From Candidatus Tenebribacter davisii (GTDB lineage Bacteria; Cloacimonadota; Cloacimonadia; Cloacimonadales; TCS61): a stretch of DNA of 64,000 nucleotides. The DNA lies in NCBI GenBank assembly GCA_030765535.1, contig JAVCCH010000166.1, positions 1 to 64,000 of the forward strand, in the 5' to 3' direction. Positions 19,371 to 62,541 of the stretch are shown piece by piece; position 1 is the stretch's first letter; every line of letters begins with the position of its first letter. The notes beneath the pieces are model-generated. The model worked only from the letters and a program-made list of their open reading frames with translations. It searched no databases and was not told the origin of the DNA. A program made the translations under genes and the position numbers.

Positions 19371-19432
19371 TTATTTAATGTATATAAGTTTAATAAATTT
19401 GCATGTATTTATATAAAAAAGGAAAAAAAATA

Positions 19433-32411: not shown

Positions 32412-32537
32412 TTAATGGTATCTTTTAATTATCAATTTTTCTGTCAATAGTTGAATGTTTATCCATTATAGATAAAACCTTGTCAAAATCTATCTTAATT
32501 AATTTTTTGAAAAGTAGTTGTTAGAATGGAGTTGAAA

Positions 32538-35500: not shown

Positions 35501-35543
35501 AGAAAAATTAATAGATGCAAAAAAATGTCTTTTATTAAAATAA
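32538..35543 (+). CDS. Secreted CapA-family metallophosphoesterase-like protein with PKD domain and T9SS-type C-terminal domain (start refined to 32538)
   Basis: Signal peptide; PKD ...FLWYFGDDSISIQQNPVHTF; CapA core LTINFVGDIMLARGYE, ANLECPLTT, LANNHTNDYM, DLVICHHPHVIQAVEVYNGKLIAHSLGNFAFD; NYPNPFNPDTNIRFTL...GIYFYKM. Confidence 0.9.
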   Translation: MKNKIILILIFLVLSYSLCLTITREIQIENFESGEVSLTSYPDEDFQPGAWEVTTENPSSPSSQYVLKLYGNTWKVEAIEPVIIDSNDVWEVSCFIENKGEIQGFGVSDGTNELLYSFDGLEEMNIEEWIPVYQGAFSENEWHIYQLPIADDWLAWFEYLPEISEIIFINDNDAGSGIVYFDNIFDISDDLPISPEVEITFEIGTVYLNEDDLRSVNVQFYSEVTDPDSDEHEFLWYFGDDSISIQQNPVHTFIVEDDHLYTIQLQVTDDSFHEGYATCQVEVDEGPSSFPLTINFVGDIMLARGYENSIIPNLGVEAIFEPTLPILGEDADITDANLECPLTTYNIHHPTKTIFFKGNPANAAGLAFAGIDLVCLANNHTNDYMLEGMQETQNTLDQYGIRYSGAGADSYEAYKPLFYSKKGVNLAFLRSSDRTGQYNNYQPYLQAGFNKFGFAYMTPYYITEQINAVQDNADLIIVETHSGSEYSTTPGANYDYTDVFNGWNEKDFAEDEDYTPRIDIPHMWDIEIRHHMIDSGADLVICHHPHVIQAVEVYNGKLIAHSLGNFAFDLNYFETFPSMILKASIDEDGFNSFCLKPVFIDDYIPQIATGELGKHILNYIKMKSKEVNTYLSIDPVEMQANIILDTLSMLIENEQYSENLEFTFNGNEYISQVIKLPEWGDISSIDEITNGNDFDFRVGRELVWFGNYEDEGASVWNINSNDEWLDDSEFYEGELALCIHQNAANGYNIITNLENRMKRRSDGEYSIHGYVKTENCEGALVQARFYNARTGGSLLGSDNFEAVSGETDWTYYASEIEVPGNTTYFDIVTNNDPPISGDSYAWFDNVGLIEWEDWQPKTSMPDPVVNPNDYYYLQIRIDNMPLNSVAHFTHTSYETNPVSIENNEVPTTKNAILHSNYPNPFNPDTNIRFTLKETGKTKITMFNIKGQKVKTLINEELLAGSYIIDWNGTNSQNKKVSSGIYFYKMEYKEKLIDAKKCLLLK

Positions 35544-35638: not shown

Positions 35639-38600
35639 ATGAAATTATTTATTACATTGATATTGTTATCATTTATCATATTTAGTACTGCAATTGATCT
35701 TGATTTTTCAGGAGATCAGATCATTATTTCAGGAGATTTTGATAAAATTGAATTTACTGAAAAATTAACACAGAATATCACATTTACACAATTAAATCTT
35801 AGAAACTGCAGACCAACCGGAAAAATCGGTGAACCTGAATTACCGATTTTCTCACAACTTATCGAACTACCAAACACTGGAAATTATAAACTAGATAATA
35901 TCTCATATAATGAAGAAATTATTGAACTTGGAAATTCAGTTTTGCCTTGCGGTCTGCTTGATGATCATGATATTAATTTATCTGAATATCAAAGTGATAA
36001 ATGGATCCCTGAAGAGATAGTTACAATAAGTGATCCAAATATTATGGGTGCGTATCGATTCACACAAATTGCTGTATCACCCATACAATATAATCCAGTC
36101 CAAAATAAATTAAAGATTCTAAAAGACATTGATATTAATTTATCTTTAGATACCAATATATTAAAAAATCCAAAATTGAAAGAAAATAAGATCAATTCAT
36201 TTTCAAGCTTATCCGCAACAATAATTCCAGGCAGCAGACCCAGGATTTCAGACCAGAAAGGGCAATATCTTTTTATTATACAAGATGATACAGCACCTAT
36301 GTTAGAGCCACTTCTTCGCTGGAAGGAAAAACTTGGTTATACAACCAGAGTTGCAACTTTATCAGAAACAGGATCTGATTCCGGCGCTATTAAAAACTTC
36401 ATTCAAAATGCCTATGATAATTGGGAAACTCCTCCAGAATATGTTGTTTTAGTAGGCGATGTTGATGGTCCTATTTCTGTCCCTTCATTTTATGTTGAAG
36501 GCTATTTAACTCCCTGGGTTGTAAGTGATCACAAATATTCAATCCTCGAAGGTGAGGATTATTTCCCTGATGTGCTTGTTGGACGCTTATCTGTACGTTC
36601 ACAATTGCAGTTAAATACAATCATCAGCAAAATCATAAACTATGAAAGTAATCCGTTTATTGAAAATAACTGGCAGAAAAAAGCACTAATGATGGCTTAT
36701 GTCGATACCTGGTCGGAGTTCTATTCCGCTAGAGAAACAGTCATGGAAGTTCGCACTAAATTACTGGATTTTGAATTTACGGTTGTAGATACATTTATCT
36801 CACCCTACCAAAGTGGAATATCAAATTTAAAAAATATGATAAATGATGGTTACACTTTCTTGAATTATCGTGGTTTTGGAGGTCCCAGTTATTGGTCGGG
36901 TCATTATGGTGCAATGTTTGATATCAATGCAATTGGAAGTTTAAATAATGGTTTTAAGTTGCCAATGGTAACAAGCATTGTTTGCGGTGGAGGAGATTTT
37001 GGCAGCACAAATTACCCTACCTGTTTTGGAGAAACTTGGCTTACTGCAGGTTCACCCTCTAATCCAAAAGGAGCAATTGGCTTTATCGGACCAAGTGAAC
37101 ACGATACAAAAACTCCTTTTAATAACACAAATGATATGGGAATCTACCAGGGAATTACACAAGAGGGAGTAACCAGATGCGGTGAAATGATGCTGCGTGG
37201 TAAGATGGAACTTTATAATAACTATCCAAATTGTCATAATTGGGGAAATGCACTGAATTCAGATCAATTCTATTTTTTTGTTTACAATCTCTTAGGAGAT
37301 CCAGGTCTGCAGATCCTTACTGACACTCCTAAAGATTTTGATATATATATTCCTGATGAAATTCCTTCCGGTTCTAACTTCCTGGAAATTCAAATCGAAC
37401 TAAATGATGAGGATAGATCAGGTTTTACAATTGCAATTACTAATTCTGACAGTTTAATAACAACAGGTATCACCGATGTTTCGGGAATTGCAGCTATTCC
37501 AATTGATCTTACAGCAGGTGCTTATGAAGTTACAGCTTCAAAATATCTGTTTATCCCAGTAACATACGTATTATCGGTTGTAGAAGCAGAAATTGTACGG
37601 GTTGATGAATATAGTTGTTCTGGAATAATTCCGGGTGAGGCTGTAAGTATTATCGTCAGTATCCATAATTCCAGTAATACCCAAGCTAATAACTTGGAAA
37701 TTGAGCTATCAACAGAAGAAGATTTTATTGAAATTGTTACTGGTTCTTCGGCCATCGCATCTCTTGATGCAAATGAATACACAACCTGTAATTTTGAAAT
37801 TGAATTAGATCATTCCTGGCAAGATGGAATTAATGGTGGTCTCTTCTTAAATATTTCTTCTGATCTAGGCGAAAATGATTTCTTTATGCCCATAGAAATT
37901 ATATCTCCACAATTTACAATTTCAGATTTCATAATTGATGAACCTAATGGAAACTTGCTGCAGAATTCAAATTCTACTTTCAATCTGGAAATTCTAAATA
38001 GTGGGAACTTTGATGCTGACGAAACTATAATTGAGATGATCGCTATGTCAGATAATTTTGAAGTCATTAATGCCGAAACAATTTGTCCAACAATTCAAAC
38101 TGGACAAACTGGACTAATTGAATCATTTTTTGAGATCGCAATAGATGACGCGATCTCCGGTGAATTAGCCAAATTTAAATTTATAATTACTAATAGCGGA
38201 AACGTATTGCAGGAAATTACTTATTCCTATCCAATTGGTGAAATATCGGAGGAAAGTCCTACTTTTTGTGATCAGGATTATATTGCAATAGAATCATCTG
38301 ACATCGGTAACTTCACTGCCCCAATTTATGATTGGATAGAGATCAATCCTTCTGCCGGCGGACAAGGCAGCATTATTCAAGGTGGAAGTGTTAATGGCTC
38401 TGACGGTTTTACCAAAACAATAGATCTGCCTTTTGATTTTCAATATTTTGGAATGATTTATGATGAGATTTCTGTTTGTTCTAATGGTTGGATTTCAATG
38501 GGAGATACTGACCGTGTGTTTTTCAGGAATAAAAATATTCCTTCAGGAGTAGGTGCAAAAGCCATGATCGCACCTTTCTGGGATAATCTAATTAATGGTT

Positions 38601-39244
38601 CTGTTTATTCCTATTATGATGATTCTCAAAATATTTTTATCATAGAATGGTCAAACTGCAGGAACTATCACAGCTATTCTTATGAGACTTTCCAGGTTGT
38701 TTTCTATGATCTGATTTACTATCCATCAATAAACGGCAATGGTGATATCCTATTCCAATATAACCAAGTACAAAATAATGATAGTTCCGATAATTATGCA
38801 ACAATTGGTATAGAAAACGAAACACAAACAAATGGATTACTAATAACTTTTGCTAATATTTATGCCCCAACAGCCCATGAACTAGAATCAGAAACTGCAA
38901 TTTTATTCACAGCAAATGGTGATTCACAGGTTAATGTTGATCAAGAACTTACTATGAACATTCCTACTCTTTATCAGAATTATCCAAATCCCTTTAATCC
39001 AACAACAACGATATCATTTTCATTAACTTCTCAAAATTCTGAAAAAGTAGAATTAACAGTTTATAATCTAAAAGGGCAGAAAGTGAAACAACTTATTAGC
39101 AATCAACTACCAGTTGGTCAGTATTCTATTGTTTGGAACGGTACAGATTTGAATGATCAACCTGTATCTTCAGGAGTATATTTCTATAAATTGGCAGCTG
39201 ATGGTAAAACAATAGCCACTAGAAAATGTTTATTATTAAAATAA
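35639..39244 (+). CDS. Gingipain-like (peptidase C25) secreted protein with T9SS-type C-terminal domain
   Basis: YLFIIQDDTAPMLEPLLRWKEKLGYTTRVATL..., YVVLVGDVDG, DYFPDVLVGRLSV, FLNYRGFGGPSYW, TSIVCGGGDFGSTNYPTCFGETWL; NYPNPFNPTTTISFSL C-terminus. Confidence 0.9.
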   Translation: MKLFITLILLSFIIFSTAIDLDFSGDQIIISGDFDKIEFTEKLTQNITFTQLNLRNCRPTGKIGEPELPIFSQLIELPNTGNYKLDNISYNEEIIELGNSVLPCGLLDDHDINLSEYQSDKWIPEEIVTISDPNIMGAYRFTQIAVSPIQYNPVQNKLKILKDIDINLSLDTNILKNPKLKENKINSFSSLSATIIPGSRPRISDQKGQYLFIIQDDTAPMLEPLLRWKEKLGYTTRVATLSETGSDSGAIKNFIQNAYDNWETPPEYVVLVGDVDGPISVPSFYVEGYLTPWVVSDHKYSILEGEDYFPDVLVGRLSVRSQLQLNTIISKIINYESNPFIENNWQKKALMMAYVDTWSEFYSARETVMEVRTKLLDFEFTVVDTFISPYQSGISNLKNMINDGYTFLNYRGFGGPSYWSGHYGAMFDINAIGSLNNGFKLPMVTSIVCGGGDFGSTNYPTCFGETWLTAGSPSNPKGAIGFIGPSEHDTKTPFNNTNDMGIYQGITQEGVTRCGEMMLRGKMELYNNYPNCHNWGNALNSDQFYFFVYNLLGDPGLQILTDTPKDFDIYIPDEIPSGSNFLEIQIELNDEDRSGFTIAITNSDSLITTGITDVSGIAAIPIDLTAGAYEVTASKYLFIPVTYVLSVVEAEIVRVDEYSCSGIIPGEAVSIIVSIHNSSNTQANNLEIELSTEEDFIEIVTGSSAIASLDANEYTTCNFEIELDHSWQDGINGGLFLNISSDLGENDFFMPIEIISPQFTISDFIIDEPNGNLLQNSNSTFNLEILNSGNFDADETIIEMIAMSDNFEVINAETICPTIQTGQTGLIESFFEIAIDDAISGELAKFKFIITNSGNVLQEITYSYPIGEISEESPTFCDQDYIAIESSDIGNFTAPIYDWIEINPSAGGQGSIIQGGSVNGSDGFTKTIDLPFDFQYFGMIYDEISVCSNGWISMGDTDRVFFRNKNIPSGVGAKAMIAPFWDNLINGSVYSYYDDSQNIFIIEWSNCRNYHSYSYETFQVVFYDLIYYPSINGNGDILFQYNQVQNNDSSDNYATIGIENETQTNGLLITFANIYAPTAHELESETAILFTANGDSQVNVDQELTMNIPTLYQNYPNPFNPTTTISFSLTSQNSEKVELTVYNLKGQKVKQLISNQLPVGQYSIVWNGTDLNDQPVSSGVYFYKLAADGKTIATRKCLLLK

Positions 39245-39260
39245 TTTGCGGGGTGTTTTT

Positions 39261-42200
39261 TTGAAGAAGATTATACTTATACTTAGTTTATTGATAATAT
39301 TTTTGCAACTTGTTGGATTGGAATTTTCAGAAATTGGTAACTCATTTCAGGTCAGCGGAAGTTTTGAAATTGAACAGATCAAAACTATTCAATCTAAAGA
39401 TAAAACTTATAACAGTATCATTATTTCTGAATGTAAAAGTAGTATGGTCTCAAATTATTTTGAACTACCAATATATTCAAAATTAGTTTCTCTCCCAAGT
39501 ACTGGAAATTATAAGTGTTCTCAGCTTGAATATGATTATGATGAAATTGTGCTTTCCAATAAAATTGCACATGTAAATGATTCTGAACAGGAACTTTTTA
39601 CTCTCAATAAATGGATCCCAGAGAATATTGTTTCCATTGGAAAACCAGTAATAATGCGTGGAAACAGATTTTCTCAAATTTCTATTTCCCCTATTCAATA
39701 CAATCCAAAACTGAATGCGATTAGACTTATCAAAGACGTTCAACTAGAATTTGAAATTGATCAATCTGACTTCAGAAATCCTCTAACAAAAATTATTACA
39801 TCAACTTCATTCAATAAGATTGCATCGGAAAGGATTCTCGGTGCGAAGAACATTACACGTTCAACCGGAGGAAAATATCTTTTTATTGCACCAAGTAGTG
39901 TTGAGAACATTTTACAACCACTTCTTCGCTGGAAGGAAAAGCTTGGTTTTAAAGCAAAATTAGCTTTTCTTGAAGATATTGGTAATACAGCTGAAGATGT
40001 AAAAGCATATCTACAAAATGCCTATGATAACTGGGAGTTCCCACCGGAATTTGTTGTTTTGGTTGGAGACGTAACAGGTGCAATTCAATGTCCTGCTTTT
40101 TATGTGGAAGGATCCTGGATGCCTTGGAATGTAAGTGATCATAATTATACATTACTTGATGGAGAGGATTATTTCCCTGACATTTTTATCGGAAGACTGT
40201 CTGTTCAAAGTCAAATGGAATTAAGGACTATTGTTTCAAAAATAAAAAACTATGAACGGAATCCATTTATGGAGATCCCCTGGCAAAAACGTGCTTTAAT
40301 GGTTGGACTTGTCGAAGCATGGAATGGGTACTCCCAACGTGAAACTTTGATGGGAATCCGAAACAAACTTCTGGATTTTGAATATGCTGTAGTGGATACA
40401 TTTATAAATCCGTGGCAGCAAGGACAAACCATGCTGGCAAACTCTATAAGTGAAGGTGAATCATTTATCTGTTATCGTGGAGCTGGATCTCCTTCCTATT
40501 GGAGTGGTTCCCCGGGTGTTATGTTCACAAGTGATAACATTGAACTATTGACGAATGGTTTCATGCTGCCAATGGTTACCAGTATGACATGCGCCGGTGG
40601 TGATTTTGCTAGTGAGCAATACTCAACCTGCTTTGGTGAAAAATGGCTTGTAAGTGGAAGTCCAGCAGTTCCTAAGGGCGCAATCGGATTCATCGGGCCA
40701 AGTGAATATGATACAAAAACCTGGTTCAATAATGCAAATGCGATGGGTATTTATCAGGGAGTTACCCAGGAAGGATTATTCCGTTGCGGTGAAATACTGC
40801 TGCGAGGTAAGATGGAACTTTATATTAATTACCCGCAAAGTCATGCCTGGGGTAATGCCTCAAATTCAGATCAGTTCTATTTTTATGTTTATAATCTATT
40901 GGGTGATCCCGGATTACAAATCCTTACTGATATTCCAAAAGAATTGGAACTCAACTTTACTGCATCTATTCCCTCTTCTGCTAATTTTATTGAAGCGCAA
41001 ATTGATATTGAGGAAGACGATCTTTCAGGATTCACAATTGCGATAACTTCTGAAGATAGCCTAATAACAACAGGAATCACAAATGCCAGCGGAATTGCTG
41101 ATATACCTCTAGATCTCCCTGCTGGAAACTATGAGATTACGGCTTCTAAATATTGTTATATCCCCAAGACAAGTGAGCTTGAAGTAAATTCAGATATAGA
41201 TATTATCTTGGAAAATTATTCGTTTCCAAATCAATTAATATCCGGGCAAAACGGTTCTTTAGAATTTACAATTTCAAATCCTGGAACGTCTAATATTGAA
41301 GATATTACAATAACACCAATCTGTGACAATGAGCATATTTCTTTCATCTCTGAACCAATTTTACTGGATATCCTTGAAGTCGGTCAAAATTATTCTGATC
41401 TATTTGAAATTGAAGTCTCTGAAAGTTGGGTTAACGGAGATGATATCCAGATATTTTTAAATATCACTTCTAATAATGAAGATTATGTATTTTTGGTCTC
41501 CACAATTATTTCATCACCTGAACTCGTTATTTCTGAATTCTTGGTTCAAAATTCAACTCAGTGTTTATTGCAAAATCAAACAGTAGATGTTATTATCGAA
41601 CTTCTAAATTGCAGTGAGTATGAAACAGGAGTTTTTCAAACTGAATTAACCTGTATAAATGAAAATGCTATCGTTGAAGATGCTGTATTCAATTTCAGCA
41701 GCATACTGCAAAATGAAACAGGATCCGGTAATTTTACCATAACACCAGAAAACGTGAACTCAGGTGAAATTGCCCAATTTAATTTAATAATAACTGGGAA
41801 TGATAATGCGCTTCAGAGCATCAACTTTAATTTCCCGATCGGGATTATTGATTCTACCAGTATCACATTTTGTGAAAATGGTTATTTTGCAATTGAATCG
41901 AGTGATATTGGTAACTTTAGTGCCCCTGAATATGATTGGATAGAGATCGATCCAACCCATGGTGGAGACGGCTCGTTACTTGATCCCGATCATACAACAA
42001 TGAACGGATTTGCAAAATTTATTCCTCTTCCATTCCAAATTAATTATTTCGGAATCTTTTATGATAATATCTCAATTTGTTCCAATGGATATATTTCCAT
42101 GGAAACAACTCCTCTCATTTTTCAAAGAAATCGCAATATCCCTTCTGGAGTTGGAACCTCCGGTATGATCGCTCCTTTCTGGGATAATCTTTATGATGGA

Positions 42201-44135
42201 CGAATTTATGTGAAATATGATGAAGAGAATAATTATTTTATAATTGAATGGTCAGATTTTAAAAATGAATTTGATGAAAGCAATGAGATATTCCAGCTTA
42301 TTCTTTATGATCCTGAATTTTATTACACAAATGATGTAAATAAATTAATGAAGTTCCAATATAAAGAAGTTAATAATACCGATCAGGATGAGAATTATGC
42401 AACTGTGGGCTTAGAAAATTACCAACAAACTGAAGGGTTATTATTAACTTTTTCAAATATCTATCCAAATACTGTTCATGAAATACAAGATGAAACAGCA
42501 ATATTATTTAGCAATGACATTGAGAATAATTTCCCATATATAAGTGTTGCTCCTGAAAGTTTCAGTTTTTCTGTACCTGCTGATTCTACTTTTACTGCTG
42601 ATCTTACTCTTTCTAATCTAGAAGGGACATCCGATGTTTCCTATAATATCTCGTTTGCACATTTTGCCAGAATACCAGATAATGAAATCAATAACTTCAA
42701 TGAAGATTTTTCTCGAAATATTGAAAATGATTATATTTTTAATATGACAAATTCCTATATACCGATCGAACCAATGAGTTTTCTTTTCTATCTTATTCAC
42801 AATAATATTGATGGAGAAGGAATTCATGGAGTTACCATTGATTTCCCACCCGGGTTTTATGTTAATAGCGCCAATGATATTGATGACCTGAGCTATAATG
42901 GTGAAACCGGTTATGGCGTTGAAGTTAGCTGGGGTTTTAACTCAGGTAACAGCATTTCACCAACAACTGCAACTCCTATTAATGTTAATGTAACAATAGA
43001 TGAAGATCAAATTTCTCCAGTAAATATTGACTGGTATTTAGAAGGTGATGGATCGGGCACTGATCCTCACCAGATAAGTGGTACATTTATTGTGAATCCG
43101 ACAACAGACAATTACTTTTGGATATCATATCCAAACGGTGGAGAGACTGTTGTTCCCTCAATTCAGGATACACTTAAATGGGATAAATACGGCGAAGCAG
43201 AATATGTGAAGATCATGCTGAGTAGAGACAATGCACAAAGCTGGCTTGTAATTGAAGATATGGCAGAGAATTCAGGTAGTTATCCATTTGTATTTGATGG
43301 GCCACTAAGTGATGAATGCTGGTTAAAAGTAGTAACTCTGGATGAAAGCAGTTATGATATCTCCGATAGTACCTTCAGTATCTCGGCATTTAATATTACA
43401 TATCCTGAAGAAGGCTCAATTTTATCTTACGGAGAACCTGTTACCTTAATCTGGGAAGATACGGGGAATTATGATAATGTAATGATCGAGATATCTACAA
43501 ATAATGGTTATACCTGGGAGACTATCGCTGAATCTACAGAAAATACAGGTTCTTTCAGTTTTAATGTTCCCGGACCACCTTCCGAATATACTCTAATTAG
43601 AATTAGTAATATAAACTGTAGTATTCAAAATACTTCTCGGCTTTTTACAATAGTAGATTCACCTGTCAACTGGCTCTCAGTTGAAAATACTACTGGTACC
43701 ATACCGGCTGGAGAGATCGAAAATAATTTGATAACTATATCCACCAATGATCTAGCTCCAGCAACCTATGTTGCTATCATAAAAATGGTTTCCGATATCG
43801 GGCAGATCTTGAATATCCCCATAACTTTAGAAGTTTATTCTACAACTCCTCCAGTAGTACGATATGTTCTTAAACAGAATTATCCGAATCCTTTCAATCC
43901 ATTCACTAAAATTGATTATGACGTTCCAGAAACAGGTAAAATTACAATTAAGGTTTATAACATTCGAGGACAGTATATAAAAACCTTGATCAATGAAAAA
44001 AAGGATAGAGGAAGTTATTATACATACTGGGATGGAACAGATGATAAAAATAATAAAGTCAGTTCAGGGATCTATTTTTATCAGCTTAATTCTGTTAGAT
44101 CTACTAAAACAAAAAAGATGATCCTTGTGAAATAA
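39261..44135 (+). CDS. Second gingipain-like (C25) paralog with extra C-terminal domains and T9SS-type CTD (TTG start 39261 preferred)
   Basis: Same architecture as the upstream gene; FICYRGAGSPSYW, TSMTCAGGDFASEQYSTCFGEKWL; extra segments ISVAPESFSFSVPADSTF... and BACON-like NWLSVENTTGTIPAGE; NYPNPFNPFTKIDYDV; GGGGTG precedes TTG 39261 followed by a signal peptide. Confidence 0.9.
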   Translation: MKKIILILSLLIIFLQLVGLEFSEIGNSFQVSGSFEIEQIKTIQSKDKTYNSIIISECKSSMVSNYFELPIYSKLVSLPSTGNYKCSQLEYDYDEIVLSNKIAHVNDSEQELFTLNKWIPENIVSIGKPVIMRGNRFSQISISPIQYNPKLNAIRLIKDVQLEFEIDQSDFRNPLTKIITSTSFNKIASERILGAKNITRSTGGKYLFIAPSSVENILQPLLRWKEKLGFKAKLAFLEDIGNTAEDVKAYLQNAYDNWEFPPEFVVLVGDVTGAIQCPAFYVEGSWMPWNVSDHNYTLLDGEDYFPDIFIGRLSVQSQMELRTIVSKIKNYERNPFMEIPWQKRALMVGLVEAWNGYSQRETLMGIRNKLLDFEYAVVDTFINPWQQGQTMLANSISEGESFICYRGAGSPSYWSGSPGVMFTSDNIELLTNGFMLPMVTSMTCAGGDFASEQYSTCFGEKWLVSGSPAVPKGAIGFIGPSEYDTKTWFNNANAMGIYQGVTQEGLFRCGEILLRGKMELYINYPQSHAWGNASNSDQFYFYVYNLLGDPGLQILTDIPKELELNFTASIPSSANFIEAQIDIEEDDLSGFTIAITSEDSLITTGITNASGIADIPLDLPAGNYEITASKYCYIPKTSELEVNSDIDIILENYSFPNQLISGQNGSLEFTISNPGTSNIEDITITPICDNEHISFISEPILLDILEVGQNYSDLFEIEVSESWVNGDDIQIFLNITSNNEDYVFLVSTIISSPELVISEFLVQNSTQCLLQNQTVDVIIELLNCSEYETGVFQTELTCINENAIVEDAVFNFSSILQNETGSGNFTITPENVNSGEIAQFNLIITGNDNALQSINFNFPIGIIDSTSITFCENGYFAIESSDIGNFSAPEYDWIEIDPTHGGDGSLLDPDHTTMNGFAKFIPLPFQINYFGIFYDNISICSNGYISMETTPLIFQRNRNIPSGVGTSGMIAPFWDNLYDGRIYVKYDEENNYFIIEWSDFKNEFDESNEIFQLILYDPEFYYTNDVNKLMKFQYKEVNNTDQDENYATVGLENYQQTEGLLLTFSNIYPNTVHEIQDETAILFSNDIENNFPYISVAPESFSFSVPADSTFTADLTLSNLEGTSDVSYNISFAHFARIPDNEINNFNEDFSRNIENDYIFNMTNSYIPIEPMSFLFYLIHNNIDGEGIHGVTIDFPPGFYVNSANDIDDLSYNGETGYGVEVSWGFNSGNSISPTTATPINVNVTIDEDQISPVNIDWYLEGDGSGTDPHQISGTFIVNPTTDNYFWISYPNGGETVVPSIQDTLKWDKYGEAEYVKIMLSRDNAQSWLVIEDMAENSGSYPFVFDGPLSDECWLKVVTLDESSYDISDSTFSISAFNITYPEEGSILSYGEPVTLIWEDTGNYDNVMIEISTNNGYTWETIAESTENTGSFSFNVPGPPSEYTLIRISNINCSIQNTSRLFTIVDSPVNWLSVENTTGTIPAGEIENNLITISTNDLAPATYVAIIKMVSDIGQILNIPITLEVYSTTPPVVRYVLKQNYPNPFNPFTKIDYDVPETGKITIKVYNIRGQYIKTLINEKKDRGSYYTYWDGTDDKNNKVSSGIYFYQLNSVRSTKTKKMILVK

Positions 44136-54497: not shown

Positions 54498-55403
54498 TTA
54501 TTCGTCTTTATTTTTATAGAATCTTGTAGTCGGATAAGCAAGCTCAATATCAGTGTGCCTGGCAAATTCCAATAAAATATCTTCCCAGATAGCTTCAGTG
54601 TAACCTCTCCGCATACGTGTTTCGCATAAATGACGAATAGTAAGCCTGACACCCTGATCTATAACACTTGTATATACTATCGGTGTTAATTTTTTATAAT
54701 AGATCATATATTTTTTAGCAGCTCTTTTAATTTGAGTTTCCATGCTCTTGGATATATTAGTACCTTTATTATCAGCAATTTTCATTAATATTTTTTTTGC
54801 TTTCTGCCAATTGCTTTCAAATGTGACTACAACTTCAATTTCATTCCAGAGATATTTAAATCCTTTATCATAATTTGCCAGATCTTGCGAGAATATTTTC
54901 CCATTTGGTATATGAATTATTCTGCCTGTACTTTGATCAGCATGAACCCAGTTCCCGATCTCTAATAGAGTAAATTCAAAAAAACTCTGATCAATTACAT
55001 CACCAGCACACTCACCAATTTGAATCCTATCCCCCACAATGAAAGGTCGACTTGAGATAATGAACAGCCAACCGGCAAGATTTGTCAGAACATCTTTCAG
55101 GGCAATGGCTATACCTGCTGAAAGTAAACCTAAATAGGTTACTAGTGATTGTGCTCCCCGAAACCAGATCCTGCCCACAAGAATAACTAAAATAATTAAT
55201 ATCGTTGAGTTAATTATTTTACGCCAATGATACTGAGTTTTCACATCATTGATATTTTTATTTATCACTTTAACAATTATTTTTCTTATCAGCCAAATAA
55301 TAATTATTAGAACAATTGATTCTAGAAGCTTTAATACGAGCGGGGAATTCAGATATGGTATACTTGTAATAAATGAATTGATATGATCAAAAAACTCTTT
55401 CAT
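54498..55403 (-). CDS. MscS-family mechanosensitive channel
   Basis: LLSAGIAIALKDVLTNLAGWLFIISSRPFIVGDRIQIGECAGDVIDQSFFEFTLLE, IHIPNGKIFSQDLANY. Confidence 0.92.
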   Translation of the reverse strand: MKEFFDHINSFITSIPYLNSPLVLKLLESIVLIIIIWLIRKIIVKVINKNINDVKTQYHWRKIINSTILIILVILVGRIWFRGAQSLVTYLGLLSAGIAIALKDVLTNLAGWLFIISSRPFIVGDRIQIGECAGDVIDQSFFEFTLLEIGNWVHADQSTGRIIHIPNGKIFSQDLANYDKGFKYLWNEIEVVVTFESNWQKAKKILMKIADNKGTNISKSMETQIKRAAKKYMIYYKKLTPIVYTSVIDQGVRLTIRHLCETRMRRGYTEAIWEDILLEFARHTDIELAYPTTRFYKNKDE

Positions 55404-56062
55404 TAATAATTCTTGAAGTTCTTTATCAACCGGATCTCAACTCTTCTGTTTTTTTTGCGGTTAACTGGATTATTATTATGAACAATCGGCTTATATTCAC
55501 CATATCCCATTGCCTGCATTTGTTCAGGTGGGAAAAAATTATTATCCATAAAAAATCTTACTACATTCAATGCTCTAGATGATGAAAGCTCCCAATTTGA
55601 AGCATAAGTACCGCTTAATATCGGCAGATTATCAGTATGACCTTCCACCCTGATTTGCCATCCAGGCTCACCATTTATTCTGTTTTGAATATTTCTGGCA
55701 ACTTGAGCTAATGTTCGTAAAGATTCCCATTTCAAAAGGGCTTCACCTGTATTAAATAATACTTCTCCCGGTATGGTAATTACCTGTTCATTTACATCTA
55801 AAAGTGAGTCTAATTTTGCCAGCTCCATCAACCGTTCATTCTGTTCAACGATCTGTTTATTTTGCTCGATCAGCATTTTGTTCTTCTGGTAATCTGTAGT
55901 AATATAAAAGAAAACAAAGAAGACTAAGAGTAGAGTCATCAGATCAGCATATGGGATCATCACATCTAAAAGATTTTGATTCTCATTATTTTCGTCGCTA
56001 AGATCCTGGATCCTACTTTGCTTTACAATATTTTTTTCAGCTAGTATGTCTTCTGTTATCAA
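55403..56062 (-). CDS. MotB-like stator protein (TM plus OmpA/peptidoglycan-binding domain)
   Basis: MIPYADLMTLLLVFFVFFY (stator TM with conserved Asp), VEGHTDNLPI...NWELSSSRALNVVRFF...GYGEYKPI..NRRVEIRL. Confidence 0.92.
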   Translation of the reverse strand: MITEDILAEKNIVKQSRIQDLSDENNENQNLLDVMIPYADLMTLLLVFFVFFYITTDYQKNKMLIEQNKQIVEQNERLMELAKLDSLLDVNEQVITIPGEVLFNTGEALLKWESLRTLAQVARNIQNRINGEPGWQIRVEGHTDNLPILSGTYASNWELSSSRALNVVRFFMDNNFFPPEQMQAMGYGEYKPIVHNNNPVNRKKNRRVEIRLIKNFKNY

Positions 56063-56796
56063 TGCAAATATCCTAATAATTTTTCTTTGATCTTATGAGT
56101 ATTTTCATTATTTTTTATAGAAATTACACCTGCAATAATTATTTCCCTGACTCTTGTATCTGTATTATTCTTATCTCTTATTTTTCCTGAAAGCGGTTTA
56201 AAGATCAGAGCTGCCAGCACAAGACCGTAAAATGTTGTAACGAGGGCTAATCCCATTGCGGCAGGGATTGCAGCAGGATCTTTTACACGATATAACATAG
56301 CTATAAGACCTATTACCGTTCCCATCATCCCGAACATAGGTGCAAAACTACCCGCTATCCTGAATACTCTTTCAGCAATGATATTTTTTTCAGTACAAGA
56401 TCTGCTATCGCGAGATAGTACCTCTTCTATATGCTTGATATCTTCTCCATCGGCGACGAGGTTCATACCCTTTGCCAAAAATGGGATCTCCTTTACAGAT
56501 TCATTCTCGATCATACTTTTAAAACTTGTTCCCTTAGATTGTTTGCTGATATCTAAGATCATTCCGATTAAATCTATTTCGCGATATTGCTTATCTTTGA
56601 ATATCCCAATTAATGATTTCCAGGCATTCTTTAATGCTTGCGGAGAAAAATAGATTATGACAGCAGATATTGTGCCGCCCAGAGTAATTGCTAAAGCTGC
56701 CCAATTGAGATATAATGAAGGTTCCTGTTTAAAAAAAATGACTGATATGATTATTCCAAAACCTAATAAAAATCCAATTATTACTGATGTTCTCAT
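56059..56796 (-). CDS. MotA/TolQ/ExbB-type proton channel (MotA-like)
   Basis: NWAALAITLGGTISAVII, AGSFAPMFGMMGTVIGLIAML, ALVTTFYGLVLAALIFKPLSGKI (conserved channel prolines). Confidence 0.93.
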   Translation of the reverse strand: MRTSVIIGFLLGFGIIISVIFFKQEPSLYLNWAALAITLGGTISAVIIYFSPQALKNAWKSLIGIFKDKQYREIDLIGMILDISKQSKGTSFKSMIENESVKEIPFLAKGMNLVADGEDIKHIEEVLSRDSRSCTEKNIIAERVFRIAGSFAPMFGMMGTVIGLIAMLYRVKDPAAIPAAMGLALVTTFYGLVLAALIFKPLSGKIRDKNNTDTRVREIIIAGVISIKNNENTHKIKEKLLGYLH

Positions 56797-56798
56797 AA

Positions 56799-58205
56799 TT
56801 ATTCCTTTATAAAATTAAGAATCTTTCTAATATTAATGAGCATTTGCTGTTTGATATTTTCCTCTTCATCTTGATCAATTTCTGCAAGATAATCCATATC
56901 TTCATGTAAAATAGAAGATGCTCTTGGAGTTAGGTTATTAAAGAATTTTCTTTGTATATCGCTATCAACACTCTTAATAAATTCTACTAATAAATCATGA
57001 TCTGTTGATAGAACTATATTCTCAATTTCCTGTTCATCTAATTTTAATATATCTGAGAACAGGAAAATTCTATTTCTTATCTCCTGCCCAGCCTGTTCAT
57101 CAAATTGATTAATTTGATCCATGTATTTCTTAGTCCTGTCCAGATCAAGCTGATTAAGTACATTAATTAGTGCTTCTTTACTATTAGTATTTAGTTTTTC
57201 ATCATCAATCATTTGTTCAAATTTCTTTTTTAAACTGTTTCTCAGTTCTAAAATATCTTTTTTCGATTTATTGATATTTTTTACCATCGATTTCATGATC
57301 TCTTCTGTTTCACCAATATATGAATTTAAAAATTTACTTACAAATTTTGAGCTCAAATTAGTGAGTATATAAGCAATATTACTTGCATCTTCATTCTCAA
57401 GTAATTTTGATAGACTTGCTATGGAAAGATCTTCCAGGAAATTAAAATCAAATATATCAATCTCTTTTTTATCATCGACAAGTCTAATCGGAATAGGCTT
57501 ATTCGACACAGTTAGATTGGATATCCCAATACCGGTATTACTGATTTTCTGTGTTTCCAATCCTCCTTTTATTTGTAATGCTTTCTCAAATCCTTTTACA
57601 TTGATACTTTGCATAGAAGTAGTTAATTTTGTGAATCCTGAACGGAGGATAAAAACAGAAACCAGAATTATTATTATTAGAACCAAACCCATATATAAGA
57701 AAAAGAAATTATTTACTTCTTTTTTTTCTTGTTCCTCTGCAACACCATTGCGGAAATCCAGAATACTTTTTATTTGCAACATATCACCTTTTTCTGGATT
57801 AATGTTCATCCAAAGAGCAACATTCTGTTTAATAAATTGCAATATCTCAGGGCTGACATCTTCCTTCAGGTAAATGGTTATCTCTTTTTTTGCTACTATA
57901 GTTGGATATGTTTCCTGATCATCAATTACAGTAGGCATTACAGATTTTGATTTTGCAATTGGAAGCCCGGGTAAACTCTTTTCCTTATCCAACATTGAGC
58001 CGTAAACCTGTAATCTGCTGGCTGGATAATCAAGTGTAAGATTTGCAATTACTATTGTTTCTCCAGCAATAGGTAATAACATTCTTTCAATCCATTCAGC
58101 CAATTCACGTTCAGATTGGATTTCCTTAACAGTTTCAATGTCAAAATCTTGTGAAAAGAGCTGTACAGCAAGCAATAAAATTAAAATAATTAACAGTTTC
58201 TTCAT
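56799..58205 (-). CDS. Membrane-anchored FliF/FliG-like fusion protein
   Basis: Signal peptide; FliF-like periplasmic segment ELAEWIERMLLPIAGETIVIANLTLDYP...ITIYLKEDVSPEILQFIKQNVALWMNINPEKGDMLQI; TM FFFLYMGLVLIIIILVSVFIL; FliG-like C-terminus ILKLDEQEIENIVLSTDHDLLVEFIKSVDSDIQRKFFNNLTPRASSILHEDMDYLAEIDQDEEENIKQQMLINIRKI. Confidence 0.8.
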   Translation of the reverse strand: MKKLLIILILLLAVQLFSQDFDIETVKEIQSERELAEWIERMLLPIAGETIVIANLTLDYPASRLQVYGSMLDKEKSLPGLPIAKSKSVMPTVIDDQETYPTIVAKKEITIYLKEDVSPEILQFIKQNVALWMNINPEKGDMLQIKSILDFRNGVAEEQEKKEVNNFFFLYMGLVLIIIILVSVFILRSGFTKLTTSMQSINVKGFEKALQIKGGLETQKISNTGIGISNLTVSNKPIPIRLVDDKKEIDIFDFNFLEDLSIASLSKLLENEDASNIAYILTNLSSKFVSKFLNSYIGETEEIMKSMVKNINKSKKDILELRNSLKKKFEQMIDDEKLNTNSKEALINVLNQLDLDRTKKYMDQINQFDEQAGQEIRNRIFLFSDILKLDEQEIENIVLSTDHDLLVEFIKSVDSDIQRKFFNNLTPRASSILHEDMDYLAEIDQDEEENIKQQMLINIRKILNFIKE

Positions 58206-58214
58206 ATAATTTCC

Positions 58215-59666
58215 TTATTGTTCATTGGTAAGTAGTCGCATCATTTTCCTTATTTCCACATTATTGGGATCCATTCTTTCTGCTTTTTTTAATTGATACA
58301 TTGCTTCTTCTATATCGCCAAGACGATAATAGATTGAGGCAAGCCTGATATATGATAACGACAGATTCGGTGCAAGAGAGATAGCTTGATTACATTCATC
58401 TATCGCTTTATGATAATCTTCCGAATAATAGAATTCCAGAGCAGCTATCAAATGTACAGTAGCCTTATTTATTTTCTGGATATCCGACTTTCTAATTTTT
58501 GCTGTTTCATCTTGAACTTTTTTCTGAACTTCTCTTTCATCCATTACGCGTTCAACTATTCTTATTGTGTCATGTATTGTTCTGGTTTTAATAACGGTAT
58601 CTACTACTACTTTTTCTACATATACTGTATCAATGCCTGCATCAGGATCAATCCCAAATTGAGATGGGTATAAGGAAGCAAGGTTCTTTTCTGTATCTCT
58701 TGTTTTTACAAAATTAATTTTTATGCCAAAGAAATGCTCTCCAAAGTCAGATTCCAAACTATTCCCCGTTGAAAAAGTTCCTCCATCTTTTGCAGCACCA
58801 AAGGGATATTGGAAAGCATAATCCATACTGATCTGCAGGAAGCTGAAATCTAATTTTTCATTTTCATTACCAGAGTTTGGATTAAACCACTTTTTAGAAT
58901 AGAACTGCACGCCAAATCCGCCAGTTACGTCATTATTATTTAATCCAAGTCTAAGTTGCAGATTCTTTGCCAATATATATTCAGTACCAACTCCAAAACC
59001 AAGCTCATTACTATTCTGATATTTACGGAATAAAAGATCTCCTGAGATGTTAAATCTTTTCCATGTTACTCCAGTACCTAACCCTAATCTCATGGGAAGT
59101 TTATCTTTATTATTGCTGTCAATAGCCATATCTGCCTGCAGTATATTACCAGCCAGAATTCCAATGTTTGCATATTGATTTATTCTATAGGAAAATCCCA
59201 AGTCTAGATCAAATGCATTTTTACTCTCACCTATTTCAGAGAAATTTGTATAATGATCATAAAGACTTACTCCTGCAGAAAGTTTATCAGTAAGCTTCTC
59301 CGGGAAAATCCTGGCTCCATAATGCAAACCGAATCTCCCCTCCGTATAAGAATCCGAATTAAATGATCCACCTGTAAGTGCAAACGCACCTGGAACTTTA
59401 TTTAACGGGAATGAAAAATAAATAAAATTCTGGGCAATATCATCATTATCCAATTGTATCATATACGGCCTTGAATCTGTGATCAACTGAAAAGATGGAT
59501 AGTTTGCCAAACCTGATGGATTCCAAACGGCTGACGAGATATCTTTGGAAGATGCTATCCCTGTCTCTCCTAAAGCTGCATTTCTAACACCGCCATTTTC
59601 AAAATCATAGCCAAAACATACTATAGGGATTATTATTAATGCAATTACAAATAACTTATATTTCAT
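58215..59666 (-). CDS. PorV/PorQ-like outer-membrane beta-barrel protein with C-terminal TPR domain
   Basis: GGVRNAALGETGIASSKDISSAVWNPSGLANYPSFQL; beta-barrel strands; coiled linker DTVIKTRTIHDTIRIVERVMDEREVQKKV; TPR HLIAALEFYYSEDYHKAIDECNQAISLAPNLSLSYIRLASIYYRLGDIEEAMYQLKKAERMDPNN. Confidence 0.8.
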   Translation of the reverse strand: MKYKLFVIALIIIPIVCFGYDFENGGVRNAALGETGIASSKDISSAVWNPSGLANYPSFQLITDSRPYMIQLDNDDIAQNFIYFSFPLNKVPGAFALTGGSFNSDSYTEGRFGLHYGARIFPEKLTDKLSAGVSLYDHYTNFSEIGESKNAFDLDLGFSYRINQYANIGILAGNILQADMAIDSNNKDKLPMRLGLGTGVTWKRFNISGDLLFRKYQNSNELGFGVGTEYILAKNLQLRLGLNNNDVTGGFGVQFYSKKWFNPNSGNENEKLDFSFLQISMDYAFQYPFGAAKDGGTFSTGNSLESDFGEHFFGIKINFVKTRDTEKNLASLYPSQFGIDPDAGIDTVYVEKVVVDTVIKTRTIHDTIRIVERVMDEREVQKKVQDETAKIRKSDIQKINKATVHLIAALEFYYSEDYHKAIDECNQAISLAPNLSLSYIRLASIYYRLGDIEEAMYQLKKAERMDPNNVEIRKMMRLLTNEQ

Positions 59667-59670
59667 TATC

Positions 59671-62541
59671 TTACCTTGCTATAATTATGCTGCCTTGATA
59701 AATTCTATTATTAATTTTAATTTGATAGATATAAAATCCACCACTTACTAAATTATTTTGTGTATCTGTTTTATCCCAGATGGCTTGTTTGTTCTCACCA
59801 TACTGTCCGATATTTAATTTTTTTATCAATTTCCCACTTCTATTTAATATTTTTCCTGATATCTTGTTTTGTTCCACCAAACTGTAAATAGTGATTGTAC
59901 AAATTTCATCCTGCTTAACTGTATGTGGTTCAATACAGATCTTTTCGTCTGGATTCTCGGGTGTAACATTAACTACAAGTTCTTCTGTTGCAATGGCACG
60001 TGTTACATTATCATCAAGAATAAGGGATAAAACTTCAGATCCTGTCCAATTTGCAGGTGCTGAGAAGGTTACTTCAAAACCATTGATCTCAATTATGATA
60101 TTGTTATTTCCGGTTATTGTTAAAGTTAATTCTTCCAATGTCTGTTCCGGATCGATAATTACCGGTGAGAAATCAAACACCTTATCTGTATTCTCAGTAA
60201 AAGTTATCACTCCGGAGAATTCTTCCATATCAAATGATGGTGCATCATTAACACTATTTACAATAATATCAATATTATCAGTTGCGAGGACATTGCCAAT
60301 TTCATCTTTAATAATAAAACTTACATTTTCCGTACCGAACCAGTTAGTATTTGGTTCAATTGTAACCATATAGACATTAATAGATATAGTTAAATTGTTA
60401 CTTACAGTTGCTTCCAGGATCGGCTCATCGTTTTCAGGATCAATAATAAAAGGACTGAAATTTTCTATTATCAAGCCATCTTCTTCACAAACCAGATTAT
60501 CTGGAAGTAACAGGACAGGTGGCTGATTTTCCTCACAAACAAAAGAAAAAGCAGCATCAACTAAAACATTGGGAACAACAGCCAGATCGGCTGCTGAGAT
60601 ATTAACAGTAACCATTTCACTATTATTAAATGGTTGTGGAGGTTGATAAGAAATTATATAACCTGCACTTCCCATGATGGATATTTCTTCAAGTTCAAAA
60701 TCTTCAATGACTATATCGTTTATGCTCATCTCGATCGAAGTAGAATCTACATCATTTTCATTATCTAATATATAACAACTTATTTGTGTTGATACAGAAA
60801 CATTAGTCGCTCCATTTGCAGGATCTGACTGCCAGATAAAAGGAGGATTTACATCTACTAGAGCACACTCAAAGGAATAGCCGAAAGTTCCCATCTCATT
60901 TGCTGGTATAACAAGGTCTGAGGCATTAATTGAAACATAAACCGTATCACCTGAATTGAAGTTTTCTACAGGATCAATTATGATCAAATAATCATTTACT
61001 GCACCACTATAAAATAAATTGTTTAATGCTATTGAATATTCAATAAATTGGACATTTACAACGACGCTATTGATATCTACACCATAACCATCATCAACTA
61101 GATGAAATGTTACATTGGTATCTACAGGATTATCTGTGGAATATGCCTGCGGATCGAGTTCTGTAACATAGGGTGAATCTGCATCACTTATGCATTGAAA
61201 AGTATAGGAAAATCCACTGAGTTGGTTAGCAGGTATTGAAAGATCCGCTACATCTATCTCTACTGATACCAATTGCGAAAAATCGAAATTTTCAGTGGGA
61301 TTTATACTTATCGAATAATTTGCCGAATTACCACTATACGATAAGTTGCCAATAGACGCTGAATATTGCTCACTATCTATTTCAACGATTAATGTATTAA
61401 TATCAACACCCAGATCATCATCATAAACATGGAAATTTATATTAGTATCTATTGGAACGTTTTGTTGACCTGGAAGAGGATCATAGTCCCCTGTATAGGG
61501 AGGGTTATTGTCCAGTTCACACTGGAAATTATAAAAATAAGTTGCCATTACATTGGCAGGTTGTGAAAGATCCGCAGCATCAATCTGAACTGTTACTACT
61601 TCACCATAATCAAAATTATTTGCGAGATCAATTGTTACTGTATATCCATTTGGAATCGTCTGATAAGTGAATGATGTATTCAGGGATGTATACTGGAATC
61701 CTTGAATATCAACCACAACAGAAATTATATCTACACCCTCAATATTATCGTAAATATTAAAAATTATATTTGTATCAATAGGAACATTATTTTCACCTGG
61801 TACAGGATCCCACTCACCAGTATATGGCGGTTGAATATCATCAATTATCTGAAAAGAGTATTCAAAAGATGACATTGATATCCCATTCAAATCAGAGGCA
61901 TCAATTATTACATTAACAACTTCTGCCAGATCAAAATTAACAGGTACATTAATAACTATATGGTAGGCATTTGCATTCCCAGTGTAATAAAAAGCTCCAT
62001 TATTGTGGGTATAAGTAACACCTTGTATCTCTACTATAACTGAAGTTAAATTAACGCCAATCCCACTGTCATAAACGACAAATTCAATATCTGTCTCCTG
62101 GGGAACATTAACAGATCCTTCTCCCGGATCTAATCCCCCAATATAAGGTGGCTGCAAATCCTCAACAGTTTGGAATGAATATGAATAAGTAGGCATTACA
62201 TTGGCTGGTTCCTCAAGATCAGATGCGTCTACCTGTAAATTAATTGTTTCATCAAACTGAAAATCCATGGGCGGATTTACTGTTATAATATAGCTGAAGG
62301 GTGTCCCACTATAGAAAAATGAAGCATCTGTACTAGTATAGATCACACCGTTAATATTTACTTGCACAGTACTAATGTCAACTCCATCTGCTCCATCGAT
62401 CACATAAAAAGTAATATCAGAATCTACCGGGATTCCTATCGCCCCTGCTGTTGGATACAATGGTGTTACATCAGGTGGGATAGCATCCGCATATAAAAAA
62501 CAACCAAATATTAGCATTAGAATAATTAGAACATTTTTCAT
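59671..62541 (-). CDS. Secreted/surface protein: six tandem Ig-like repeats, two cadherin-like repeats, FlgD-like/T9SS-type C-terminal domain
   Basis: Signal peptide; repeats PPYxGxxDPxPGxxNVPIDTNIxFxVYD..GVDI..V.V.I...; C-term ISGKILNRSGKLIKKLNIGQYGENKQAIWDKTDTQNNLVSGGFYIYQIKINNRIYQGSIIIAR. Confidence 0.88.
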   Translation of the reverse strand: MKNVLIILMLIFGCFLYADAIPPDVTPLYPTAGAIGIPVDSDITFYVIDGADGVDISTVQVNINGVIYTSTDASFFYSGTPFSYIITVNPPMDFQFDETINLQVDASDLEEPANVMPTYSYSFQTVEDLQPPYIGGLDPGEGSVNVPQETDIEFVVYDSGIGVNLTSVIVEIQGVTYTHNNGAFYYTGNANAYHIVINVPVNFDLAEVVNVIIDASDLNGISMSSFEYSFQIIDDIQPPYTGEWDPVPGENNVPIDTNIIFNIYDNIEGVDIISVVVDIQGFQYTSLNTSFTYQTIPNGYTVTIDLANNFDYGEVVTVQIDAADLSQPANVMATYFYNFQCELDNNPPYTGDYDPLPGQQNVPIDTNINFHVYDDDLGVDINTLIVEIDSEQYSASIGNLSYSGNSANYSISINPTENFDFSQLVSVEIDVADLSIPANQLSGFSYTFQCISDADSPYVTELDPQAYSTDNPVDTNVTFHLVDDGYGVDINSVVVNVQFIEYSIALNNLFYSGAVNDYLIIIDPVENFNSGDTVYVSINASDLVIPANEMGTFGYSFECALVDVNPPFIWQSDPANGATNVSVSTQISCYILDNENDVDSTSIEMSINDIVIEDFELEEISIMGSAGYIISYQPPQPFNNSEMVTVNISAADLAVVPNVLVDAAFSFVCEENQPPVLLLPDNLVCEEDGLIIENFSPFIIDPENDEPILEATVSNNLTISINVYMVTIEPNTNWFGTENVSFIIKDEIGNVLATDNIDIIVNSVNDAPSFDMEEFSGVITFTENTDKVFDFSPVIIDPEQTLEELTLTITGNNNIIIEINGFEVTFSAPANWTGSEVLSLILDDNVTRAIATEELVVNVTPENPDEKICIEPHTVKQDEICTITIYSLVEQNKISGKILNRSGKLIKKLNIGQYGENKQAIWDKTDTQNNLVSGGFYIYQIKINNRIYQGSIIIAR
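60526..62478 (-). repeat. Six tandem protein repeats of about 109 aa (Ig-like), diverged at DNA level
   Basis: Repeat starts near residues 22, 131, 238, 347, 456 and 566 of the 956-aa protein (PPxxxxxxP...NVP...DT...D..GVDI...). Confidence 0.88.

Follow-up and report, generated by a model that had tools for sequence, protein, structure and literature searches.

A FliF-FliG fusion encoded beside MotA and MotB in Cloacimonadota: a candidate rotor outside the flagellum

MotA turns the flagellar rotor protein FliG via residues Arg-281, Asp-288, and Asp-289 (Escherichia coli numbering), and the RBM3 domain of FliF makes the S-ring. A natural fusion of these two rotor proteins has been described in Chlamydia (Bergeron 2016, PMC4768692): it comprises ∼330 amino acids and contains a signal sequence, two transmembrane segments, RBM2 together with another RBM-like region, and homology to FliG_M only. 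Artificial fusions of the full-length flagellar proteins have been engineered as well; the Vibrio FliF-FliG fusion (PDB ID 8z4d, PMC11481574) still makes an S-ring, and Salmonella fusions (cited in PMC4768692) form rings and working motors. Chlamydia provides the only natural FliF-FliG fusion that we found described, and we could not find a paper on a FliF/FliG/MotAB operon outside flagella in the open-licence literature searched; a report that escaped us is possible. We regard the fusion from Cloacimonadota presented here as a variant form of flagellar rotor that had not been described; viewed as a system, it may be categorically new.

The window (the whole stretch of 64,000 nucleotides of Candidatus Tenebribacter davisii DNA that was analyzed) encodes this fusion, hereafter FFG, in an operon that runs from position 62541 to 54498 in the order surface protein, PorV-like barrel with TPR, fusion, MotA, MotB, and MscS; neighboring genes overlap slightly or lie no more than 9 bases apart (Table 1). 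The original prediction, made from sequence alone and confined to this one gene, had proposed a 468-amino acid FliF-FliG fusion in which the N-terminal transmembrane segment and RBM1/RBM2 of FliF are missing and a signal peptide is present instead. Both claims hold: profile, fold, and comparative tests agree on the fusion, the quoted motifs are present in the open reading frame, and the truncation of the FliF part is supported by hydropathy and by the lack of any match to PF01514 (FliF RBM1/RBM2) in the organism's own genome. The stronger evidence comes from the operon and from an unfused version in another phylum. FFG almost certainly consists of a signal peptide, a FliF RBM3-like domain, one transmembrane helix, and the middle and C-terminal domains of FliG; our confidence in the homologies is very high.

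Table 1. Positions of the operon genes and of the FFG domains in the window.
Feature	Positions	Strand	Details
Ig-like (Big_5) surface protein	59671..62541	minus	956 aa
T9SS sorting-like C-terminal domain of surface protein	59674..59958	minus	type B/CHU_C-like
PorV/FadL-type outer-membrane barrel with C-terminal TPR	58215..59666	minus	barrel ~59-324; TPR ~393-482
FliF-FliG fusion (FFG)	56799..58205	minus	468 aa, ATG start
FFG N-terminal signal-peptide-like segment	58152..58205	minus	residues 1-18; alignment and hydropathy
FFG FliF RBM3-like periplasmic domain	57765..58130	minus	residues 26-147
FFG single transmembrane helix	57645..57701	minus	residues 169-187; AlphaFold model and hydropathy
FFG FliG middle domain	57210..57416	minus	residues 264-332; without FliM-binding EHPQ
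FFG FliG C-terminal domain	56820..57116	minus	residues 364-462
FFG torque-helix stretch	56898..56924	minus	Arg-428, Glu-435, Asp-436
MotA	56059..56796	minus	245 aa; equivalents of E. coli Pro-173 and Pro-222 conserved
MotB	55403..56062	minus	219 aa; plug/TM and OmpA peptidoglycan-binding domain; Asp-32 equivalent conserved
MscS-type mechanosensitive channel	54498..55403	minus	301 aa

FFG shares with the flagellar rotor and stator (FliF, FliG, MotA, and MotB) the RBM3 fold, a single C-terminal transmembrane helix, the FliG middle and C-terminal domains, the three torque residues, and dedicated MotA and MotB proteins. It differs in that the N-terminal transmembrane segment, RBM1, RBM2, and the C-terminal FliG-binding helix of FliF are missing, that a Pfam search detects no FliG_N (the FliF-binding domain), and that the FliM-binding EHPQ motif is lost; in addition, its operon contains a PorV-like barrel and a protein with a T9SS signal. 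As both FliG_N and the C-terminal FliF helix are absent, the covalent link stands in for the interface that they form. A signal-peptide-like N terminus followed by one hydrophobic transmembrane segment is found in 12/12 family members examined, and in an alignment of FFG relatives the signal-peptide-like segment mostly ends in Ala or Ser before a Gln.

The FliG part is recognized directly, and its identity is certain. The C-terminal domain matches Pfam FliG_C (E = 2.3e-18, 66.9 bits versus a cut-off of 23.3), the middle domain matches FliG_M below the Pfam cut-off (E = 9e-4, 19.8 versus 25 bits), and the NCBI model TIGR00207 (fliG) aligns with residues 253–462 (E = 5.6e-23, below the equivalog cut-off). 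A profile of the FFG family finds FliG in the PDB with an E-value of 5e-33. FFG is the sole FliG_C protein over cut-off in its own genome (3.0 Mb, 95% complete).

We compared 18 fusions with E. coli FliG and found that Arg-428, Glu-435, and Asp-436 of FFG correspond to Arg-281, Asp-288, and Asp-289, respectively. Position 281 is Arg in 18/18 fusions, and positions 288 and 289 are each acidic in all 18, so that the charges of the torque helix, whose conservation had been put forward as a check, are retained throughout. Lys-264 is kept as Lys in 6/18. The predicted retention of the acidic pair as Glu-Asp is confirmed and concerns Asp-288/Asp-289; the predicted replacement of a distal Arg by an acidic residue holds for the window sequence (Asp), whereas across the family there is a general loss of Arg-297, mostly to Ser, Asp, or Thr (commonest letters: S7, D4, T2, E1, K1). 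The EHPQ motif is present in 0/18 fusions, as opposed to 23/23 flagellar FliG proteins.

For the FliF half, the single FFG sequence has no Pfam match to a FliF domain. A profile built from 13 family members, however, matches a solved FliF RBM3 chain (PDB ID 9yh6, 144 amino acids) over residues 28–145 (E = 4.5e-4). We calculated an AlphaFold model of FFG from 33 sequences (mean pLDDT 71, pTM 0.33); with this pTM, the relative placement of the domains carries no meaning. The N-terminal domain is modeled as a helix (residues 26–47), a strand (50–59), an insert, a second strand (103–113), a helix (119–132), and a third strand (142–147), followed by the long transmembrane helix. This α-β-[insert]-β-α-β order is that of an RBM, and the insert lies between strands 1 and 2 as reported for FliF RBM3 (PMC4768692). 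The insert (residues 60–102) is of low confidence and contains an SLPGLPIAKS motif. A Foldseek search of the PDB with the FFG model returned FliG entries at the top and many FliF S-ring/RBM3 entries directly beneath, with probability 1.00 (7bk0, 7e-4; 8z4d, 1.4e-3; 6sd1, annotated “RBM3/collar region,” 3.6e-3). When the fusions are combined with their unfused relatives, the joint N-domain profile aligns end-to-end with flagellar FliF RBM3 (hhalign probability 96%, E = 4.5e-9). The N-domain of the fusion alone yields only 4–12% against six or seven flagellar FliF proteins of both phyla; we do not count this as a refutation, because these profiles are shallow and the value rises to 96% once the Neomarinimicrobiota FliF-like sequences are added.

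To define the genetic context, we surveyed 25 fusion loci in Cloacimonadota. Wherever the sequence continues past the fusion, the next gene is MotA (23/23 loci), and MotB follows in 22/22 with room for it. Immediately upstream of the fusion is a PorV-TPR gene in 18/25 loci (nearby in 2 more), and a surface protein is encoded near the fusion in 21/25. The MscS gene follows MotB in the complete loci of the same genus and in genome G021. MotA retains the Pro-173 and Pro-222 equivalents in all operons, and MotB retains the equivalent of Asp-32, the essential residue of the proton site, with one exception, an Asn in G035 (L040:216–797/L094). MotA Glu-98 is not conserved in the fusion operons and is kept in those of Neomarinimicrobiota (see below); the MotA-FliG contact must therefore differ in detail. 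Genomes G007 (L043:7635–10633) and G098 (L100) each have an additional fusion gene that has diverged from the first and is accompanied by a separate MotA and MotB. We found no PorV or surface protein gene adjoining these paralogous operons or the G107 operon, and the link to an adhesin is thus not obligatory.

Since the rotor components are conserved and MotAB is adjacent in every case, a ring driven by MotAB is the most probable reading of the locus, and we consider it likely that FFG forms such a rotor; ring assembly, rotation, and ion coupling are inferred. The same applies to the original proposal of a minimal MS-ring and rotor in one chain, in which the architecture is confirmed, and assembly and rotation remain inferences. 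A static membrane scaffold that does not rotate has a precedent in the unexplained Chlamydia protein, likewise a FliF-FliG fusion of natural origin, whose host is believed not to be flagellated (PMC4768692). However, that paper lists only FliF, FliL, and FlhA as flagellar genes of Chlamydia, and neither MotA nor MotB, whereas FFG has RBM3 as its only RBM, one transmembrane helix, both FliG domains with conserved torque residues, and MotAB invariably following. A static scaffold hence appears very unlikely.

Our surveys were restricted to 125 Cloacimonadota and 245 Neomarinimicrobiota genomes, and absence of a flagellum was judged by FliF (PF01514) and FlhA (PF00771) over cut-off, not by FliC or FliM. 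The fusion is present in 24/125 Cloacimonadota genomes, and 11 contain an ordinary FliG, in which only the FliG part matches. Relatives carry labels that include Candidatus Tenebribacter mawsonii, and one is labeled Neomarinimicrobiota. Genome G006, from the same genus and 98% complete, has no fusion gene that we could find, although most of the genus has one; loss and an assembly gap are both possible. FliF and FlhA occur in 8 of the 40 nearest genomes, each from another family, and are absent over cut-off from 24/24 genomes of the same family, including that of the organism itself. They are also absent from 14/15 fusion-bearing genomes tested, which sets FFG apart from the flagellar rotor; G035, the genome with the Asn substitution in MotB, is the only one tested to combine the fusion operon with flagellar FliF and FlhA. 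The occurrence of flagellar genes in same-order genomes of other families could suggest that FFG is a degenerating relic of a flagellum since lost. This explanation is rejected, since 24 genomes retain the fusion, most of them with an intact frame and operon, its functional residues are invariant, and it forms a clade well apart from the flagellar FliG of the phylum (100/99); we regard it as all but excluded.

Neomarinimicrobiota contain an unfused form of the system. In eight complete loci (L130–L135, L140, and L141) the gene order is PorV-TPR, MotA, MotB, FliF-like, and FliG-like, and a ninth (L126) is consistent as far as the end of its contig. The FliG-like protein matches FliG_N, FliG_M, and FliG_C, all over cut-off. 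In L134, the FliF-like protein matches YscJ_FliF_C over cut-off (5.6e-7), the FliF-like profile matches several solved FliF chains (1.7e-6 to 1e-3), and the C terminus (SVGQPDTASRVINEWL) is similar to the FliG-binding end of flagellar FliF (NPETAVRLFKSWML). These operons are preceded by coiled-coil/TPR proteins and lack the surface protein. The FliF-like gene is found in 162/245 genomes and FlhA in 42; comparison of both lists leaves 129 genomes with the FliF-like gene and without FlhA. We did not find the unfused form in Cloacimonadota, where our search with the FliF-like profile returned three weak matches, the best being the N-domain of the window's own fusion (E = 9.8e-5). Given a two-gene rotor in Neomarinimicrobiota, the fusion in Cloacimonadota has the appearance of a reduced form in which both genes have been joined. 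Three other Neomarinimicrobiota loci (L127:4531–6132, L128:7098–8654, and L129:8782–10311) encode fused FliF/FliG-like proteins of 509–533 amino acids beside two TPR genes; there is no MotAB nearby and the torque residues are not conserved, and they are possibly a non-rotating derivative.

A maximum-likelihood tree of the FliG middle and C-terminal domains, which has several long branches, contains separate clades for the fusions (100/99), for the flagellar FliG proteins from the two phyla (100/97), and for the Neomarinimicrobiota FliG proteins that are not flagellar (100/100). An origin of the fusion as a recent offshoot of the phylum's own flagellar FliG is rejected by this tree. When sequences from E. 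coli, Aquifex, Thermotoga, and Vibrio are included, all flagellar FliG proteins form one clade in 42% of bootstraps, and the placement of the non-flagellar FliG proteins relative to all flagella is unresolved.

The outer-membrane partners show similarity to the type 9 secretion system (T9SS). In its model, the PorV-TPR protein has a barrel of ∼14 strands with TPR helices behind it (pLDDT 73.5), and the closest folds in the PDB are those of the T9SS translocon protein PorV (8gl6 and 6h3i) and of FadL; 14/23 members match PorV_fam and 2/23 match PorP/SprF. At the C terminus of the surface protein, 8/8 members match the CHU_C T9SS signal (best 1.8e-10) and 6/8 match TIGR04131, the type B sorting domain (best 5.7e-7); in the window protein the signal reaches ∼1e-3, under the curated cut-offs. 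The locus thereby resembles the gliding/T9SS machinery of Bacteroidota (GldLM, SprB, SprF, and PorV), with which it would share an ion-driven motor, a surface protein whose putative T9SS signal is type B-like, and a barrel similar to PorV/PorP-SprF. It differs in having FliF/FliG/MotAB in place of GldLM, and the connection between motor and adhesin, which in Bacteroidota would be SprB, is inferred. SprA_N of the T9SS translocon is present in 34/40 relatives, and GldM over cut-off in 0/40, although a divergent GldLM may escape the profile. Together with the PorV fold and the T9SS-like signal in the operon, this could mean that the FFG motor energizes the T9SS. The fusion is, however, missing from many SprA-positive genomes (e.g. 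G006, G012, G015, and G028) and therefore cannot be a general T9SS energizer; we consider this explanation unlikely.

Elsewhere, the window encodes two peptidase C25 (gingipain-like) proteins (35639–39244 and 39246–44135) and one PGA_cap protein (32526–35543), all three bearing a T9SS Por_Secre_tail over cut-off, and a 1544-amino acid sensor (19403–24037) with SBP_bac_3, several PAS and GAF domains, and a HisKA_2 histidine kinase.

We propose the following mechanism for a MotAB-driven rotor. The signal peptide would take FFG through the inner membrane, and RBM3 would oligomerize into a periplasmic S-ring-like ring, with the transmembrane helices bearing the FliG middle and C-terminal domains as a crown on the cytoplasmic side. 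The two genes that follow would supply MotA5B2 stators, which, with MotB held on peptidoglycan, would turn against the conserved Arg-281/Asp-288/Asp-289 face. Without a FliM-binding site and an export gate, rotation is probably one-directional and not switched by chemotaxis. The rotating periplasmic ring would most likely work on the TPR of the PorV-like barrel, a contact that is inferred, and via the barrel the Ig-like surface protein may be driven, such that an adhesin is moved along the cell, much as SprB is in the gliding of Bacteroidota, though by a FliG-type motor instead of GldLM. We lean toward this proposal as a whole, that is, a flagellum-independent MotAB rotor working on the barrel and surface protein. 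The adhesin or gliding role taken by itself is inferred and fits the operon, and we offer it as tentative, just short of favoring it: no motility record was found for these uncultured bacteria, and the Neomarinimicrobiota operon has no surface protein.

Alternatively, the MotAB-driven FliF/FliG ring could transmit force across the envelope in the manner of Tol-Pal/TonB and would then pull on the barrel-TPR protein for envelope upkeep or transport without any locomotion. In support, the PorV-TPR protein, unlike the surface protein, is a constant element in both phyla, coiled-coil/TPR proteins precede the Neomarinimicrobiota operons, and an MscS channel is part of the operon in the organism's genus. 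Known Tol/Exb systems, however, have no FliG or FliF rotor, the conserved FliG torque residues indicate rotation of the ring, and the Cloacimonadota operon encodes a large surface protein with a T9SS signal. We thus view a force transducer as unlikely and retain the rotor working on barrel and surface protein. A bolder reading is that FliF/FliG/MotAB motors make up a separate class of rotary machine, in which no flagellum is ever assembled and the motor acts on an outer-membrane barrel and a surface adhesin instead. Such motors would be widespread in both Neomarinimicrobiota (SAR406) and Cloacimonadota and would differ in ancestry from the flagellar motors found there, with the rotor/stator core as a free-standing module; this goes further than we would presently back, if not by much.

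FliG and FliF have so far been known as parts of the flagellum or, in Chlamydia, as vestigial parts. If our interpretation is correct, the conservation of a FliF/FliG/MotAB module together with dedicated outer-membrane partners, in genomes that lack FliF and FlhA over cut-off, would mean that a flagellum is not required for the flagellar rotor to work, and one could ask whether such motors existed before flagella or branched from them. FFG would define the smallest rotor turned by MotAB, made of one RBM, one transmembrane helix, and the FliG middle and C-terminal domains. It would also provide a candidate motility or envelope machine for two large uncultured phyla, one of which is abundant in the oceans.
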